Source: an uncultured Fluviicola sp.
GTDB taxonomy: Bacteria > Bacteroidota > Bacteroidia > Flavobacteriales_D > Crocinitomicaceae
Reading direction: 5' to 3'
DNA length: 64,000 bases
Assembly (NCBI RefSeq): GCF_902168135.1
Contig: NZ_CABHOL010000015.1
Span: 1-64,000 of the forward strand
How positions within the stretch are numbered: position 1 is the first letter of the stretch; every line of letters starts with the position of its first letter. The translations under genes were made by a program, and so were the position numbers. Under the pieces are notes generated by a model. It was not told the DNA's origin and searched no databases. It saw nothing but the letters and a program-made list of their open reading frames with translations. Below, piece after piece: positions 4,903 to 44,446 of the stretch.

Positions 4903-5853
4903 ATGGAATTAACTCCTGAAATCTTAGAAAGAATTACTCTTCTTAAAGCGAAATATGACGCGCAAGGTCAGGATTTGGTAACATATCTGGATAGTTTATT
5001 GTATTCAAGAATGCCAAATTATTGGGACTACATTCAGGTAGATACTTTATTGTCTTTGCAGAAGACATATACTGACTTTCCGGATGAAGTGGTTTTTTTG
5101 ATGTATCACCAGGTAACTGAATTATACTTCAAATTATGCCTGCATGAATTTCAGCAAATTTCAGATCGTAAGAATTTAGACGCTCCTTTCTTCGTGGAAC
5201 ATGTTCAGCGGATCAACCGTTATTTTGAAGCTTTAACAAAGAGTTTTGAGATCATGGTTGACGGAATGCAGCGGGAACAATTCCTGAAGTTCAGATTGGC
5301 ACTGGCACCTGCTTCAGGGTTCCAATCCGCTCAATACCGCAAAATTGAAATTCATTCTACGGATTTCCTCCAATTGGTCCACAAAGACCATCGTGAAAAA
5401 TATACCGGTAAAGAACCGATTGCAGAGCTTTTTGAAAACATATACTGGAAAGAAGGAGCAACAGATATTGACACAGGTAAGAAGACTTTGACATTGACTC
5501 AGTTTGAAGACCGTTACCGCGAAGAATTTATTCAAATGGGTGAGAATCTGCGCAACGATAACCTGTGGCAGTGTTATTTACGCTTACCAGCAGAAGATCA
5601 GGAACTACCGGAAGTTGTCCATGTCCTGAAACAAAATGACGTAAACGTGAACATCAATTGGCCTTTGGTACATTATAAATCAGCTGTACGTTATTTACAG
5701 AAAGATAAAGGTGATATTGCTGCAACAGGTGGAACAAACTGGCAAAAATACCTTCCTCCGCGTTTCCAGAAACGCATTTTCTACCCGCAACTGTGGTCTG
5801 AAACGGAAACTGCTGAGTGGGGAAAATCCTGGGTGGAAGCAGTATTGAACTAA
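4903..5853 (+). CDS. kynA: tryptophan 2,3-dioxygenase
   Basis: This 316-residue haem enzyme opens the indole ring of L-tryptophan to N-formylkynurenine, the first step of tryptophan breakdown. Visible family marks are the distal-side motif FLMYHQVTELYFKL (His69), PASGFQSAQYRKIE (residues 137-149, with the carboxylate-binding Arg at 146), the proximal haem His257 in PLVHYKSAVRYL, and the ATGGTNWQKYL loop at 274-284 corresponding to the GTGGS(S/T) substrate loop. The length is slightly above that of short bacterial enzymes (about 280) and below animal forms (about 400). No kynurenine formamidase or kynureninase is adjacent. The only other candidate for the route in this window is the ybdL-type aminotransferase at 59680, whose relatives can act on kynurenine. 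Confidence 0.92.
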   Translation: MELTPEILERITLLKAKYDAQGQDLVTYLDSLLYSRMPNYWDYIQVDTLLSLQKTYTDFPDEVVFLMYHQVTELYFKLCLHEFQQISDRKNLDAPFFVEHVQRINRYFEALTKSFEIMVDGMQREQFLKFRLALAPASGFQSAQYRKIEIHSTDFLQLVHKDHREKYTGKEPIAELFENIYWKEGATDIDTGKKTLTLTQFEDRYREEFIQMGENLRNDNLWQCYLRLPAEDQELPEVVHVLKQNDVNVNINWPLVHYKSAVRYLQKDKGDIAATGGTNWQKYLPPRFQKRIFYPQLWSETETAEWGKSWVEAVLN

Positions 5854-5882: not shown

Positions 5883-5922
5883 AAACATGTAGGGGCGCGA
5901 TTAATCGTGCCCCTACATGTTT
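5883..5922. repeat. palindromic intergenic element, family GTAGGGGC (copy A)
   Basis: AAACATGTAGGGGC (5883-5896) pairs perfectly with 5909-5922. The centre GCGATTAATCGT also folds on itself apart from one G-T pair, so 19 of 20 positions pair in a 40-nt palindrome. It lies between kynA and the next gene on the same strand and could act as a terminator, but the T-run after it is short. It shares its GTAGGGG...CCCCTAC arms with the elements at 27151, 33187, 43783 and 29895. Confidence 0.85.
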
Positions 5923-15693: not shown

Positions 15694-18600
15694 ATGGTTG
15701 AAACAGATCATTCTCTTGAGGACGAAGAAGCATTCATCTTTCGCGATTCCGACTTTGCCGAACTCAATTATGGTACACTTCTGAAATTTGCGGAAGCATC
15801 TGCCATTCAGGTCCTGAACTTTAGCGGCAATTCCGTGCAGGCTGTTGAGCTTTCTGTTAACAAAGGTATCTTTCTATGCAATTACGGATTTCGTGCAGAA
15901 CACGAAGTAATCCTGACCCAGGAAAACCGGAACGTTGTTCTTGCCTGCAGCTGCGGCGGGAATGGCAAAAAACTCTGCGACCACCAGGCAATTGTGCTTT
16001 ACCGGGTGATGGAATTGAGCGATTTTCGAGCTTTCTTCGATGAATCAGACCGAAAAAAACGCATTTCTGAGGCAGCGCTTTCCTATGGAATTACGGATGA
16101 AGAAAAATGGAATGAACTGTTCCGGATCTCTTATGAAAACAGGCAGCTAAAAGTAACTTCCAGGAATCCGGAACTGATCCGCTTAACTCCGGATAAGCTG
16201 GACGAATTGAACCGGAAACTTGCACCGGTCTCTTTTTCACCGGAAAAATTACATGCACCCTTGCCAAATCGCTATATTGCCTTTCGTGCTCATGCGAATG
16301 AAAACCATTTCGAATTTGAGATCAATGAAAGTGCCCTGACCCAAACCGGGAAAATCAAATCGCCGATCCGCATTTTGAACCCACTGGAATTAGCATTACA
16401 GGAAACCAAACCTGAAATGATCCAGGCTTACACCGCTTTGGGTATGTTAAGCACAAAACACCATTTGTACCGGAACCTGGTAAATGATGAAGAAGCATTC
16501 CTGAAAGTGGTCAAATCGATCGGGATTGCCAAACCACTTTTTGAAGAGTTTCAGGTAATTGAAGTTTGGGACGCAAAACCTCCGAAAGATGCGGATCTTA
16601 CCATCCACATTCACGATAAACCCATGCAGGTGCACCTGGATGTCAATCAAAACGAGGAGTTCTTCGAAATAACAGGCTTCATTGAGGTTGACAATCACAA
16701 AATTGGTTTTGATCAGGTAAAAATGAAAAGCGAATTGTTCATACGCCGCGGACAGGATTTGTACCTGATCAAGAACTGGAATTACCTGCGGACACTGAGC
16801 TATTTTCGGAAGAATCATCACAAGCTGATCATTCATCAATCACAGTTTGATGCCTTCCAGGCACGTTTTTTAGTTCCGCTTGAAAACGTCATAAGCATCA
16901 ATTATTCGTATGTAAAAAAGGCCACACGTGCTATTATCAAACAAACCCAACTGGCAGCCGTCCGGGCGAAACGCATTTACCTCACAGACAGCGAAAATTA
17001 CATCCACATCACTCCGATCATTGAATACGGCCAGGTAGAAATTCCGATCCTTTCCAAACGTAAATTATTGACAATAGATCAAACCGGGAATTCATTTGAA
17101 ATTCCGCGGGACGAAGAACTGGAAATTAGTTTCCTGGGCCAGATTATCCGTTTGCACAAAGATTTCGAATACCAGCTTGGCGGCGATTTTTTCTACTTGC
17201 ACAAAAGCCAGTTTTTGGAGAACGACTGGTTTCTGAATGCATTTGAATCCTGGAACGAAGCCGAATTGGAAATTCACGGTTTCCAGGAATTAACGAAACT
17301 AAAACTGGTTCCGAAGAGCATGAAAGTTTCGGTTCAGATCATCAGCGGAATTGATTGGTTCGAAACGAAGGCGCATATCAAAGTTGGAGATAATCGGGTG
17401 CGTTTGAAAGAAATACAGCGCAGCATTATTCAAAAATCACGCTATGTGAAACTGGGCGATGGTCAGCTGGCACTACTTCCACAGCAATGGCTGGAGCGAT
17501 TCTCCGCTTTTTTTCAGGAAGGAGAATTGGCAGATGATGTTATCCGGATTCCGAAAACTTCTTATCAATTTATCGATGAGTGGTTCGAAGCAGAAGAGAT
17601 CGACACCGATGTTCGCATGCAAATAGAAGACCTGAAAGAAAAGATCACACATTTCGAACGCATTCCTGAAATTGAGCTCCCGAAAGAATTCCAAACGGAA
17701 TTACGACACTACCAGCGGGAAGGATATCATTGGCTGCATTTTTTAAACGATTTTGGTTTCGGGGGTATTCTCGCCGACGATATGGGGCTTGGAAAAACCA
17801 TCCAGGTTTTAGCCTATCTTTCCAAAAAGCATGAAGTACAAAAAGGAGTTCATTTGATTGTTGTTCCAACTTCTTTGGTTTTCAACTGGAAGGATGAAAT
17901 CGCAAAATTCACTCCACATTTACGGGTTCTGGACCTACATGGAACCAAGCGGATCAAATCCGTTCAACATTTTGAGAAATTCGACATTCTGCTAAGTACT
18001 TACGGAACGCTTTTGTCGGACATTCGCTATCTGAAAGATTTTGTATTCGACACCATTATCCTGGATGAAGGTCAGGCCATTAAAAACCCGGATTCCAAAC
18101 GTTATAAAACTGTCCGTTTGCTGCAGTCCAAACAGCGCTTCGTACTCACCGGAACCCCGATCGAGAACAACACATTAGACATCTATTCGATCCTGTCGTT
18201 CTGCAACCCGGGAATGTTCGGTTCACTGAAGCAATTCAAAGACCACTTTGCTTTTCCGATCGACAAATTCCAGGACAGCCAGCGCGCGAAAGAATTGCAA
18301 AAACGCATTCACCCCTTCCTTTTGAGGCGTACCAAGAAACAAGTCGCTACAGAACTTCCGGAAAAGACCGAGATGGTTGTTTATTGTGAAATGGACCATG
18401 AACAGCGGCGTGTTTATGACGTTTACAAAACAGAATTGAAGGAATACCTGATGAGCGAACCGGATTTCACGGATGGTCAGCACAGCATGCATGTATTAGC
18501 CGGATTGACCAAATTGCGCCAGATCTGCAATTCTCCGGCATTGATCAATGAAAACGGAGTTTCTTATGGAGATCAGTCGGCCAAGATCCAGGAATTACTG

Positions 18601-19077
18601 GAACAGATAGAAGACAAAAAGAAGCACCATAAAATCCTTGTGTTTTCTCAGTTTGTAGGAATGCTTGAGTTGATCGAAAAAGCATTGGAAGAGCGAGAAA
18701 TACCGTATTCCAAATTAACGGGTCAGACCAGAAAACGCAGGGAGGTCGTGACCGCTTTCCAGGAAAACGAGCACATCCGTGTTTTCCTGATCAGTTTAAA
18801 AGCCGGCGGAATGGGATTGAATCTAACACAGGCAGATTACGTCTATCTCATCGATCCATGGTGGAATCCAGCGGTGGAAAACCAGGCAATAGACCGTGCT
18901 TACCGGATTGGACAAGACAAGAAAGTCGTTGCCGTTCGATTCATCACCCCCAATACGATCGAAGAGAAAATCCTGGAATTACAAAAACGCAAGCAGGAAT
19001 TGGTCGGGGATCTGGTGCATACCGATGTAAGTACGTTGAAACAGCTGAGCAGGAAAGAATTGGTTGATTTGTTGTAA
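15694..19077 (+). CDS. SNF2-family DNA helicase/translocase with SWIM zinc finger
   Basis: This 1127-residue protein has a SWIM-type zinc finger near the N-terminus (Cys85, Cys87, Cys95, His97 in CSCGGNGKKLCDH). A long middle region of about 550 residues without clear motifs follows. The SNF2 ATPase then occupies about 670-1127: Walker A GGILADDMGLGKT at about 690-702, DEGQ box at 791-794 (LDEGQAIKN), motif III LTGTPIENN, motif V AGGMGLNLTQAD, and motif VI QAIDRAYRIGQDKKV. Such single-chain bacterial SNF2 proteins track along DNA and remodel bound proteins; a HepA/RapA-like role with RNA polymerase is one option. No methylase, nuclease or other defence gene stands next to it. It is monocistronic, with 76 nt before its start. 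Confidence 0.9.
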   Translation: MVETDHSLEDEEAFIFRDSDFAELNYGTLLKFAEASAIQVLNFSGNSVQAVELSVNKGIFLCNYGFRAEHEVILTQENRNVVLACSCGGNGKKLCDHQAIVLYRVMELSDFRAFFDESDRKKRISEAALSYGITDEEKWNELFRISYENRQLKVTSRNPELIRLTPDKLDELNRKLAPVSFSPEKLHAPLPNRYIAFRAHANENHFEFEINESALTQTGKIKSPIRILNPLELALQETKPEMIQAYTALGMLSTKHHLYRNLVNDEEAFLKVVKSIGIAKPLFEEFQVIEVWDAKPPKDADLTIHIHDKPMQVHLDVNQNEEFFEITGFIEVDNHKIGFDQVKMKSELFIRRGQDLYLIKNWNYLRTLSYFRKNHHKLIIHQSQFDAFQARFLVPLENVISINYSYVKKATRAIIKQTQLAAVRAKRIYLTDSENYIHITPIIEYGQVEIPILSKRKLLTIDQTGNSFEIPRDEELEISFLGQIIRLHKDFEYQLGGDFFYLHKSQFLENDWFLNAFESWNEAELEIHGFQELTKLKLVPKSMKVSVQIISGIDWFETKAHIKVGDNRVRLKEIQRSIIQKSRYVKLGDGQLALLPQQWLERFSAFFQEGELADDVIRIPKTSYQFIDEWFEAEEIDTDVRMQIEDLKEKITHFERIPEIELPKEFQTELRHYQREGYHWLHFLNDFGFGGILADDMGLGKTIQVLAYLSKKHEVQKGVHLIVVPTSLVFNWKDEIAKFTPHLRVLDLHGTKRIKSVQHFEKFDILLSTYGTLLSDIRYLKDFVFDTIILDEGQAIKNPDSKRYKTVRLLQSKQRFVLTGTPIENNTLDIYSILSFCNPGMFGSLKQFKDHFAFPIDKFQDSQRAKELQKRIHPFLLRRTKKQVATELPEKTEMVVYCEMDHEQRRVYDVYKTELKEYLMSEPDFTDGQHSMHVLAGLTKLRQICNSPALINENGVSYGDQSAKIQELLEQIEDKKKHHKILVFSQFVGMLELIEKALEEREIPYSKLTGQTRKRREVVTAFQENEHIRVFLISLKAGGMGLNLTQADYVYLIDPWWNPAVENQAIDRAYRIGQDKKVVAVRFITPNTIEEKILELQKRKQELVGDLVHTDVSTLKQLSRKELVDLL

Positions 19078-27150: not shown

Positions 27151-27190
27151 AAAATAGTAGGGGCGGAAAATTTTCCGCCCCTACTATTTT
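27151..27190. repeat. 40-bp perfect palindrome, family GTAGGGGC (copy B)
   Basis: AAAATAGTAGGGGCGGAAAA (27151-27170) is followed by its exact reverse complement (27171-27190) with no loop bases. It lies between convergent stops at 27137 and 27195. The inner GGGGCGG/CCGCCCC part matches copy A in the outer bases but not in the centre. A-T-rich ends on both strands would let it end transcription both ways. Confidence 0.92.
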
Positions 27191-29894: not shown

Positions 29895-29926
29895 AGGTAG
29901 GGACACCATGCATTACGTCCCTACCT
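29895..29926. repeat. palindromic element, family GTAGGGAC (copy E)
   Basis: AGGTAGGGAC (29895-29904) pairs exactly with GTCCCTACCT (29917-29926) around a 12-base centre containing ATGCAT. It lies directly upstream of the glycosyltransferase start and just past the stop of the coiled-coil gene at 29943. A degenerate relative with the same CATGC...ACGTCCCTA core is at 43750-43772. Confidence 0.8.
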
Positions 29927-29942
29927 AACAAATAATCCCGAA

Positions 29943-30602
29943 TTACTTAATCTTCTTCAACAACTCCTGGGTTTCTCCAAGCTTGGTAGTTTGAGCACCG
30001 ATCTCTTCTTCTTTCTTTTTGGAAGCAGCTTCGTTGTCTTTGATATTCTGCTCCGCTTCAGCGATTTTCTTTTTGTAGTTCTCGATATCCTTTTTGGAAT
30101 CTTCGATCTCTTTCAGCATGTCTTCCTTTTCACCGGTCAGTTTTTTCAGAATTTTCGTTTCTGCCTCAATCATTCCGTTGACACTTTCTTTAGAAGCATT
30201 CTGACCGAATTTCTTCGCGCGGCTTTCGATCGTTCTGTGCTGGTCTTTGTGGTCGCCCTGGTTCATATAGCTCCCACCCAAATCAACTGCAAAAGCAACT
30301 TTGATCTCCGAACCGCTTTCAATGATTTTCGCGTATCCGTCGAAATACTTGTCGCCCATCTCTTTCATTTTGGCTTCTTTCGCCGTGTATTCACCTTTCG
30401 AACTGTTATATTTTCCACCCCAGTCCTTCATTTCAGACTTCAGTTCTTTTTCAATAATGTCTTTATTCCCATATGGAATACTTACAACAATTGCGTCAAA
30501 GGATCCGTGAGAAAAACTCACTTTGTCATTCGATGTTTTTACTTCTTGTCCGATTGCCCAGGTAGTGCACAAAGCGGCAACGAAAAGTGTTACTTGTTTC
30601 AT
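29943..30602 (-). CDS. exported protein with C-terminal coiled coil, paralogue 1
   Basis: This 219-residue protein has the signal peptide MKQVTLFVAALCTTWAIGQ, a globular part (about 25-130) with GSFDAIVVSIPYGNKDIIEKELKSEMKDWGG and YFDGYAKIIESGSEIKVAFAVDLGG, and a lysine/glutamate-rich coiled coil from about 140 to the end. It shares these phrases with the neighbouring gene at 30661 throughout, so the two arose by tandem duplication. I know no named domain for the globular part. The mature protein is probably periplasmic, and the long helix suggests it forms dimers or filaments. The 58-nt gap to the paralogue has no clear terminator, so co-transcription is likely. Confidence 0.7.
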   Translation of the reverse strand: MKQVTLFVAALCTTWAIGQEVKTSNDKVSFSHGSFDAIVVSIPYGNKDIIEKELKSEMKDWGGKYNSSKGEYTAKEAKMKEMGDKYFDGYAKIIESGSEIKVAFAVDLGGSYMNQGDHKDQHRTIESRAKKFGQNASKESVNGMIEAETKILKKLTGEKEDMLKEIEDSKKDIENYKKKIAEAEQNIKDNEAASKKKEEEIGAQTTKLGETQELLKKIK

Positions 30603-33186: not shown

Positions 33187-33220
33187 ACTGTAAGGGCGAA
33201 AAATTTTTCGCCCTTACAGT
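33187..33220. repeat. 34-bp perfect palindrome, family GTAAGGGCG (copy C)
   Basis: ACTGTAAGGGCGAAAAA (33187-33203) is followed directly by its exact reverse complement (33204-33220). Unlike copies A and B, it sits between divergent genes, upstream of both, so it cannot be explained as a terminator alone. Confidence 0.92.
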
Positions 33221-43521: not shown

Positions 43522-43749
43522 CGTGTAAAAAATAACATTGAAAATGGATTGTTGCTGATGGATTTCAGAGGTTCAGCAACCTCACGGGTGAATTCAGACC
43601 CTACAGAAACGGGTAAAGCGCCAGAAGGATCGGCGCATGCTAATTCGATATGTCGAAATGAATTTCACGCAGTAAAACTAATCAATTTTCGCACAATTAT
43701 GAATACCTGATTCCTAATTGTTCCTCGTTTTCCTTTTTTCAATAAAAAA

Positions 43750-43772
43750 GGAACGCATGCTTCACGTCCCTA
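43750..43772. repeat. degenerate GTAGGGAC-family element (copy F)
   Basis: GGAACGCATGCTTCACGTCCCTA is the core with imperfect arms (GGAACG against CGTCCC, one mismatch). The CATGC...ACGTCCCTA string closely follows copy E at 29895, and it stands 10 bases before copy D. The rest of the 292-nt gap between 43522 and 43813 holds no reading frame or clear signal. Confidence 0.45.
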
Positions 43773-43782
43773 ATTTCACTTT

Positions 43783-43813
43783 AAGTAAGGGTGAAAAATT
43801 TTCACCCTTACTT
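43783..43813. repeat. 31-bp palindrome, family GTAAGGGTG (copy D), touching a stop codon
   Basis: AAGTAAGGGTGAAAA (43783-43797) pairs exactly with TTTTCACCCTTACTT (43799-43813) around a single base. Its last base abuts the stop codon of the DsbA-like gene at 43814, so it may terminate that transcript. Against copy C, two bases in each arm differ and still pair. Confidence 0.9.
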
Positions 43814-44446
43814 TTATCCTTTTAAAACTTCCTGAATCGTCTGCTCAAAATGTTCGATTGGCTGAGCTCCTGAAATGGCGTATTTCCGATCAAAAACAAA
43901 GAACGGAACACCTCTTACTCCAATTTGCTGTGCCTCTGAAATATCGTTTCTCACAGCATTGGCAAACCTTGTTTCATCTTCCAGAACTTCTTTTACATCC
44001 AAAGCGTTCAGCCCGATTCCAACGCACAGTTCCATGAGGGTGTCTTTATCATTCAAATCTCTCCCCTCGGTGAAATAGGCTTTGAAGAACTTTTCCTCTA
44101 TCGGATCGCCCAGACCTTTGGTTTTCGCCAACTGGATCAAGCGATGTGCATCAAAAGAATTTGAAACGACCGCTTTTTCGAACTGGTAATCCAGGCCAAC
44201 TTCCGCTGCGCGGGCTACTACACCAGCATGCATTTGTTTGGATTCTTCCACGGACACGCCTTTTCGTTCAGCCAGGTATTCATATACGTTCTTATCGGGC
44301 TGCGGAACGATTGTCGGATCGAGCTGAAAGCTTTTCCATTCAATCTCAAAGTGCTGATCCGGGAACTGGTCCAAAGCAGTTTCCAAATGTCTTTTCCCGA
44401 TATAACAAAACGGACACATGATGTCCGACCAAATTTCAATTTTCAT
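43814..44446 (-). CDS. DsbA-family FrnE-like oxidoreductase
   Basis: This 210-residue thioredoxin-fold protein has the active site CPFC at residues 11-14 (SDIMCPFCYIGKRHLE). FEIEWKSFQLDPTIVPQPDK follows the FrnE (DsbA-like) pattern, and GVRGVPFFVFDRKYAISGAQ closes with the cis-Pro loop VPFF. There is no signal peptide, so it is cytoplasmic, unlike classic DsbA. FrnE proteins link to disulphide exchange and oxidative or metal stress. The start codon stands four bases after a good promoter box, so it may be leaderless. Confidence 0.9.
   Translation of the reverse strand: MKIEIWSDIMCPFCYIGKRHLETALDQFPDQHFEIEWKSFQLDPTIVPQPDKNVYEYLAERKGVSVEESKQMHAGVVARAAEVGLDYQFEKAVVSNSFDAHRLIQLAKTKGLGDPIEEKFFKAYFTEGRDLNDKDTLMELCVGIGLNALDVKEVLEDETRFANAVRNDISEAQQIGVRGVPFFVFDRKYAISGAQPIEHFEQTIQEVLKG

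Follow-up and report, generated by a model that had tools for sequence, protein, structure and literature searches.

The palindrome at positions 5883-5922 of the 64,000-nucleotide stretch of Fluviicola DNA analysed here (the window) raises the question of whether it belongs to a wider family of hairpins and, if so, what keeps the two arms of each copy matched. A preliminary description listed five intergenic palindromes with fixed ends, GTA(A/G)GGG...CCC(C/T)TAC, and co-varying centres, located in same-strand, convergent and divergent gaps. All five were recovered with the pairing described there, and our gene calls agree with the assigned gap types. Copy A (5883-5922; core CGATTAATCG) forms 19 of 20 pairs, with one G-T mismatch, and lies in a same-strand gap 30 nt past the stop of the gene at 4903-5853 (+), with a GTTTTC-type tail following. 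Copy B (27151-27190; core GAAAATTTTC) is a perfect 40-nt palindrome of 20 pairs in a convergent gap, near the stops of both neighbours (27137 on the + strand, 27195 on the - strand). Copy C (33187-33220; core AAAAATTTTT) is a perfect 34-nt palindrome, with 17 of 17 pairs, in a divergent gap. Copy D (43783-43813) forms 15 of 15 pairs around one central base and lies in a same-strand (-) gap, 2 nt past the stop of 43814-44446 (-). Copy E (29895-29926) carries the sister sequence GTAGGGAC, in which 10 outer pairs enclose an imperfect, mismatched core; it also lies in a same-strand gap, 16 nt past the stop of 29943-30602 (-), with TTTTTTT next on the - strand.

Folding of these elements as RNA yields -32.7 kcal/mol for copy A (z-score -9.4), -30.9 kcal/mol for copy B (z-score -9.3; other strand -30.0 kcal/mol and -9.8) and -25.7 kcal/mol for copy C (z-score -9.7), with weaker values for copy D (-19.2 kcal/mol, z-score -5.2) and copy E (-17.4 kcal/mol, z-score -3.6). 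Copies B, C, D and E are among the top entries of a scan of the window for terminator-like structures. When compared with an intrinsic terminator, a G+C-rich hairpin with a T-run just past a stop codon, the fit is good for A, B and E. It is poor for C, which lies between divergent genes, and for D, whose T-run is on the + strand although the neighbouring genes read on the - strand, so that D qualifies on the other strand only. The end pattern occurs on average 0.01 times in 200 mononucleotide shuffles of the window, and a scan of the window with Rfam 15 gave no matches at the gathering score. Two other features of the window were recorded. A further imperfect hairpin (AGGGACGTGAAGCATGCGTTCCT; 43749-43771), resembling the subfamily of copy E, lies 11 nt from copy D with its T-run on the - strand, and positions 15694-19077 encode a 1127-aa helicase whose hits to SNF2-type and anti-phage helicase models all score under the respective cut-offs.

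The source genome (G000; 4.38 Mb in 56 contigs) contains 63 matches to GTARGGG-N4..30-CCCYTAC, compared with 5 for the reversed control. A sister type, GTAGRGAY...RTCYCTAC, matches 13 times and never in its control, and copy E is one of its members; this subfamily (GTAGGGACGCGATGCATCGCGTCCCTAC, 13 places in the genome) is more decayed than the main one. A search with a covariance model built from 43 copies, in which 150 of 1192 candidates were scored, yielded at least 145 strand-wise matches (E <= 0.001), hence at least 73 places. The typical unit is a 28-bp mirror without a loop, consisting of GTAGGGG(C/T)G, a 10-bp core and the complement (GTAGGGGCG-N10-CGCCCCTAC and variants). The cores sort into the subfamilies CGATTAATCG, GAAAATTTTC, AAAAATTTTT and TAAAATTTTA plus a few others, and the fourth base of the end motif is G or A with a matching partner. 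Longer units of 34-38 bp also occur. Individual copies depart from the ideal form, for example with one central mismatch (L171) or a poor 36-bp core (L004).

The copies are single. Two inverted REPs within about 100 bp, as in a REPIN or BIME, are not the arrangement here: the smallest spacing is 3687 bp among 51 of the 63 copies in the source genome and 545 bp in a second genome (G007), with the exception of one slot in G012 that holds two units 14 bp apart. By form, with many dispersed and mostly extragenic copies (63 in G000) and 28-bp palindromic units that have GT[AG]G...C[TC]AC ends and fall within 20-65 nt, the family is of the GTAG 'double foot' REP type. The consulted sections of PMC6006769 describe double-foot REPs as bounded by GT[AG]G on one side and by the complementary sequence on the other, and assign them to TnpAREP subclass 2.4, whose RAYT genes have REP insertions inside and are abundant in Cyanobacteria and Bacteroidetes but found in other phyla too. 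Set beside that description only, our family is alike in its ends, its long palindrome and its dispersal, but in the genus differs in having no palindrome-linked RAYT, in carrying T-tracts on both sides and in showing core differences at orthologous slots. The GTAG REPs covered in the consulted part of PMC3733652 are likewise 20-40 bp elements with a GTAG end, dispersed in tandem and convergent gaps near 3' ends, with paired subfamily differences in the stem. However, those REPs form stem-loops with an unpaired GTAG at one end, and many of them occur as dimers. The units found here are single and loop-free and have their GTAG paired with CTAC, so that they are not canonical GTAG REPs. No GTAG family in Bacteroidetes is reported in that part of PMC3733652.

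The claim that the centres co-vary while the structure is kept is borne out. In a 40-column alignment, two-sided changes are present in 14 of 20 pairs. For 43 copies of 28 nt from the source genome (40 distinct), the covariation score is 0.446, whereas shuffles give 0.131 (sd 0.012) and slid partners 0.059 to 0.110; none of 500 shuffles scored as high, a figure that is not a probability because the copies are related by descent. According to the preliminary description, the family would be an accident of strong terminator selection if the genome held only these few copies with no excess of paired changes over shuffles. The genome-wide copy number and the paired changes, which lie far above shuffled and slid controls, do not agree with such an accident.

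Co-variation extends to three further pairs outside the unit, at positions -1 to -3. Among tandem copies, these positions are complementary in 83, 71 and 66 of 87 cases (39.2, 38.1 and 34.4 expected from composition), and among convergent copies in 36, 36 and 36 of 42 (18.8, 19.3 and 16.2 expected). Position -1 is complementary in all 13 divergent copies (4.1 expected). Beyond -3, an A-tract on the left faces a T-tract on the right, and matching there exceeds expectation slightly or not at all, except at position -5 of tandem copies (70 compared with 57.4). If transcripts from both strands are to be stopped, then both hairpins must be good, and this rationale permits convergent and tandem copies to be compared. 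Mismatched copies number 1 of 35 in convergent gaps and 21 of 85 in tandem gaps (P 0.0038), as judged from the 27- and 28-nt copies (133 of 142) with the innermost pair omitted; the divergent count is 3 of 13. On the transcribed strand of tandem copies, 11 mismatches are G-U and 8 are A-C (5 other), which gives no clear bias at the RNA level.

Placement was examined for 145 copies from four genomes (50 of 63 in G000, 13 of 25 in G012, 42 of 42 in G007 and 40 of 40 in G008) by using gene calls from a codon-usage script. None of these copies lies inside a called gene. Three are at contig edges and were left out of the gap counts, and the remaining 142 comprise 87 tandem, 42 convergent and 13 divergent copies, compared with 84, 24 and 40 among 148 other gaps. 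Convergent gaps are thus enriched (42 of 142 compared with 24 of 148; P 0.0077) and divergent gaps depleted (P 0.0001). A position 3' of a gene is occupied by 129 of the 142 classified copies, with a median distance to the upstream stop of 20 nt and a distance of 40 nt or less in 120 of these 129 tandem or convergent copies. Because REPs in general are found near 3' ends, a habit noted in the consulted part of PMC3733652, place alone proves little. The flanking tracts are a second feature: the 8 nt after the unit contain on average 5.16 T (local value 2.79) and the 8 nt before it 5.26 A (local value 2.86). For divergent copies, the tract values are 3.0 and 2.85.

These findings suggest that the family consists of dispersed 28-bp, zero-loop, double-foot palindromes and that most copies in the genus probably serve as portable, two-way intrinsic terminators. 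Most copies have the G+C-rich hairpin and the T-run just past the stop, some 20 nt downstream, that are typical of rho-independent terminators, but they differ from these in forming a recurring family with conserved ends rather than a set of unrelated sequences. A copy placed about 20 nt downstream of the stop would let transcripts from both strands fold into hairpins of 12-19 pairs, each trailed by a U-run. The arms probably co-vary for two reasons. Selection would preserve the hairpin, with the strictest demand at sites that serve both strands, and entire copies in a slot would be replaced by copies of other subfamilies.

The suggestion in the preliminary description that the palindromes are not only terminators holds for a minority, the divergent copies, which are 13 of 142 here compared with 40 of 148 other gaps. 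Certain observations argue against the terminator reading. Tandem copies have A- and T-tracts of equal strength (5.13 before and 5.14 after the unit), although termination in one direction should suffice there, and terminator function leaves the complementarity at position -1 in all 13 divergent copies unexplained. Together with the G-U and A-C counts of 11 and 8, the tandem A-tract and the divergent -1 pairing also argue against a one-way account that operates purely at the RNA level.

Sites were compared across genomes of the genus by matching the flanks on both sides, for a total of 82 comparisons. In 56 of these, the other genome carries a palindrome that fits the pattern; the other 26 lack one, and some of them hold a changed copy. 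Reduction to distinct cases left 27 pairs, at 21 sites by our grouping, with some pairs sharing a site; 5 pairs of unequal length were left outside the position counts. The 22 equal-length pairs include 13 with the same core, 7 in which three or more of the five core pairs have changed on both sides and 2 in which one has. Stem changes are paired in 8 cases and one-sided in 4, in keeping with the claim that the structure is kept. For the four outer pairs, 17 changes are paired, 12 are one-sided and 4 are unpaired in both copies.

Wholesale core differences are present at 9 of the 21 orthologous slots, namely 6 sites where three or more paired changes fall in the core and 3 where the copies differ in length and have clearly unlike cores; the count excludes the pair at copy D, where the copies lie at different spots, and one pair that differs by one base in length. 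At several of these slots alignment of the flanks extends right to the hairpin, and at others they align poorly (for instance at L011, and at L171 and L318 on the right). For example, slot L008 carries GAAAATTTTC in G000, the same core with GTAA/TTAC ends in G008 and CGATTAATCG in G012, and slot L178 carries a 35-bp unit in G000 and GAAAATTTTC in G008. The slot with two units in G012 is L171, where the second unit has GCAG/CTGC ends, an arrangement that suggests a gain beside the old copy, to be followed by later loss.

The slots of the window behave similarly. The orthologue of copy A in G007 has a paired change adjoining GTAG, and slot B in that genome has paired changes within the conserved end motif itself (GTAGGGC...GCCCTAC), which takes it off the search pattern and outside the orthologous-pair counts. 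In G003, slot B (L153) holds an unrelated hairpin, GGTACACTTCGACTCCGCTCAGTGTACC, between its own A-run and T-run. Imperfect relatives of copy C are present at its slot in G007 and G012. The site of copy D has no copy in G007, and in G008 a copy lies elsewhere within the same gap. At slot E, the ends are GTAG in G000, GCAG in G007 and GCTG in G003, and are paired in each. The ends described as fixed are not fully so, as slots B and E and the G or A at the fourth base reveal. The changed ends and the unrelated hairpin at these two slots in different genomes indicate that the hairpin is kept and the sequence is not.

These data permit a more tentative proposal, which we regard as possible but somewhat doubtful: the genus may keep fixed 'terminator slots' after genes, at which whole two-way terminator cassettes (CGATTAATCG, GAAAATTTTC, AAAAATTTTT, TAAAATTTTA or a 35-bp hairpin, depending on species) are exchanged, symmetric or nearly so and with their own matching outer pairs, through copying or conversion that would need no resident RAYT. 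We infer that replacement would proceed by re-insertion or gene conversion. Target duplications and clean empty sites were looked for at the orthologous slots and none were found, and a check for MITE-type ends revealed flanks that are complementary rather than direct repeats.

The family is not confined to the source genome. At least one match is present in 11 of the 14 genus genomes searched (G000 included); 10 genomes have six or more, three have none, and the range is 0 to 63 copies. Matches occur in 9 of 45 other genomes of the family and order, with at most 6 in each. A wider contig scan for GTAGGGGCG-N10-CGCCCCTAC, with length fixed at 28, found at least 117 stretches, and the names among the matches listed include Chloroflexi, Cyanobacteria, Desulfobacterota-type, Planctomycetes, Acidobacteria, Omnitrophota and Bacteroidota. 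Among these listed matches, 123 units could be counted, with a perfect core in 85 and no symmetry beyond the unit in 85, and the cores GTTCGCGAAC, TATTGCAATA and AGGCATGCCT recur 10, 8 and 7 times. Of the listed units from other phyla, 40 of 64 lie within 40 nt of 3' ends by a cruder longest-ORF rule for gene calls. These units lack tracts: among the matches listed, T per 8 nt is 2.24 in tandem gaps (local value 2.12) and 2.10 in convergent gaps (local value 2.02). For 14 of these 64 listed copies, the crude calls suggest that the adjacent gene ends with the TAG inside GTAG as its stop codon (distance -4).

Such a distribution invites the explanation that a resident RAYT actively copies selfish palindromes, whose place and symmetry would reflect harmless insertion sites and the needs of the enzyme. 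We consider this explanation unlikely for the genus. A search of the source genome with PF01797 returned two proteins, both outside the window, in accord with the earlier statement that the window has no RAYT gene. One (L016) is a REP-associated tyrosine transposase that matches NF047646 above the NCBIfam cut-off, and the other (L017) is a relative, below the NCBIfam cut-off. The genome therefore does contain a RAYT of the kind that the preliminary description proposed to look for, but this gene is not flanked by palindromes of the family. A GTAGRGRC palindrome was found near none of 22 Y1_Tnp loci (L016, L017 and 20 loci of the genus and family), which together have one half-site. Furthermore, G012 (100% complete, 25 copies) and G002 (84% complete, 45 copies) hold copies but yielded no match to PF01797, and active copying by a RAYT predicts neither the T-tracts nor the difference between convergent and tandem copies.

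Other observations were made at these loci. By eye, the RAYT gene at L016 (1000-2000) is flanked by hairpins other than GTAG palindromes, and the adjoining protein carries a T9SS sorting domain. Nine genus genomes encode a Y1_Tnp-like protein, about 183-221 aa long, that carries CRDH(M/I)H and YIxxNR-type motifs and has no palindromes near its gene (L017, L375, L377, L383, L385, L386, L387, L389 and L390); it may be a tamed transposase.

Evidence that favours RAYT copying comes from elsewhere, in addition to the RAYT at L016 and the bare units listed from many phyla. An Anaerolineaceae locus (L071) carries a RAYT-like gene, matching NF047646 below cut-off, that ends at a perfect palindrome, contains palindrome-like stretches and is preceded by a degenerate copy. 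This locus fits the double-foot picture given in the consulted sections of PMC6006769, where the gene has palindromes inside. At a second locus (L260), GGGGCGGG-type hairpins lie on both sides of a Y1_Tnp match, of which one ends in CTAC and the other starts with GATAG. However, half-site density at 70 Y1_Tnp loci of other genomes is 0.147 per kb (40 RAYT-like) and 0.146 per kb (30 best-scoring), and these equal values at background level indicate no general association with RAYTs. The consulted part of PMC8266576 reports that correcting the bulge of an E. coli REP harms activity, and leaves open how group 3 enzymes recognize their perfect palindromes. The proposal that transposase-type copying is a possible cause of the family gains support from the 63 and 13 copies in the source genome, from the occurrence of the unit in many phyla and from the RAYT linkage at L071, and we infer that the family originated by RAYT-type copying.

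Still less probable is mutational repair of symmetry, in which template switching at imperfect palindromes would copy one arm onto the other and yield co-variation in the absence of selection. The paired changes at orthologous sites are consistent with this mechanism, as is the complementarity outside the unit, which reaches even position -1 of divergent copies. Yet repair should act equally in all gaps, which the mismatch counts for tandem and convergent copies contradict, and core changes jump at once between a few recurring subfamily cores. Template switching as the sole cause was dropped on the difference in mismatches.

Convergence of ordinary terminators on a similar sequence, without any mobile origin, is very improbable; it would account for the place, the tracts and the hairpins, but termination demands neither GTAGGGG ends nor identical cores in dozens of copies, and among the matches listed the 28-bp unit is present in many phyla without T-tracts.

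DNA uptake sequences of Neisseria and Haemophilus are dispersed motifs that form inverted pairs after genes and double as terminators. The palindromes resemble them in dispersal and inverted pairing after genes, and a duplex palindrome could bind a putative dimer, but an uptake signal or protein-binding site is the reading to which we give least credence, given variable cores ill-suited to one fixed site. The window also shows no excess of single half-sites, and the uptake idea was dropped on these counts: GTAGGGG occurs 3 times (1.8 expected) and CCCCTAC 4 times (2.6 expected), and copies A and B account for 2 of each.

Judged by title, none of the papers listed for GTAGGGGCG deals with repeats of this kind, and core replacement at orthologous slots is not described in the titles and abstracts found on RAYTs, REPs, terminators, uptake sequences and Bacteroidetes. 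The consulted part of a paper on the Nostoc hyp operon gives a repeat, agacgcgatt(c/a)atcgcgtct, whose core is like one of this family's. The two-sided tracts, the gap-dependent perfection and the change of core at fixed slots are likewise absent from the titles and abstracts found, while the kind of element itself is known.

The preliminary interpretation is thus partly supported, and the observation behind it is real and more orderly than first stated. Judging from sequence comparisons, the palindromes form a double-foot family that in this genus most likely acts as a portable two-way terminator. REPs have traditionally been described as selfish, or as possible participants in termination. 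With the unit bare in many phyla and T-tracted in one genus, the steps by which a mobile palindrome was tamed to serve as a terminator would be traceable at named orthologous slots. Moreover, the difference in perfection between convergent and same-strand copies offers a simple way to test for two-way terminator function from sequence, and it could be applied to any genome.
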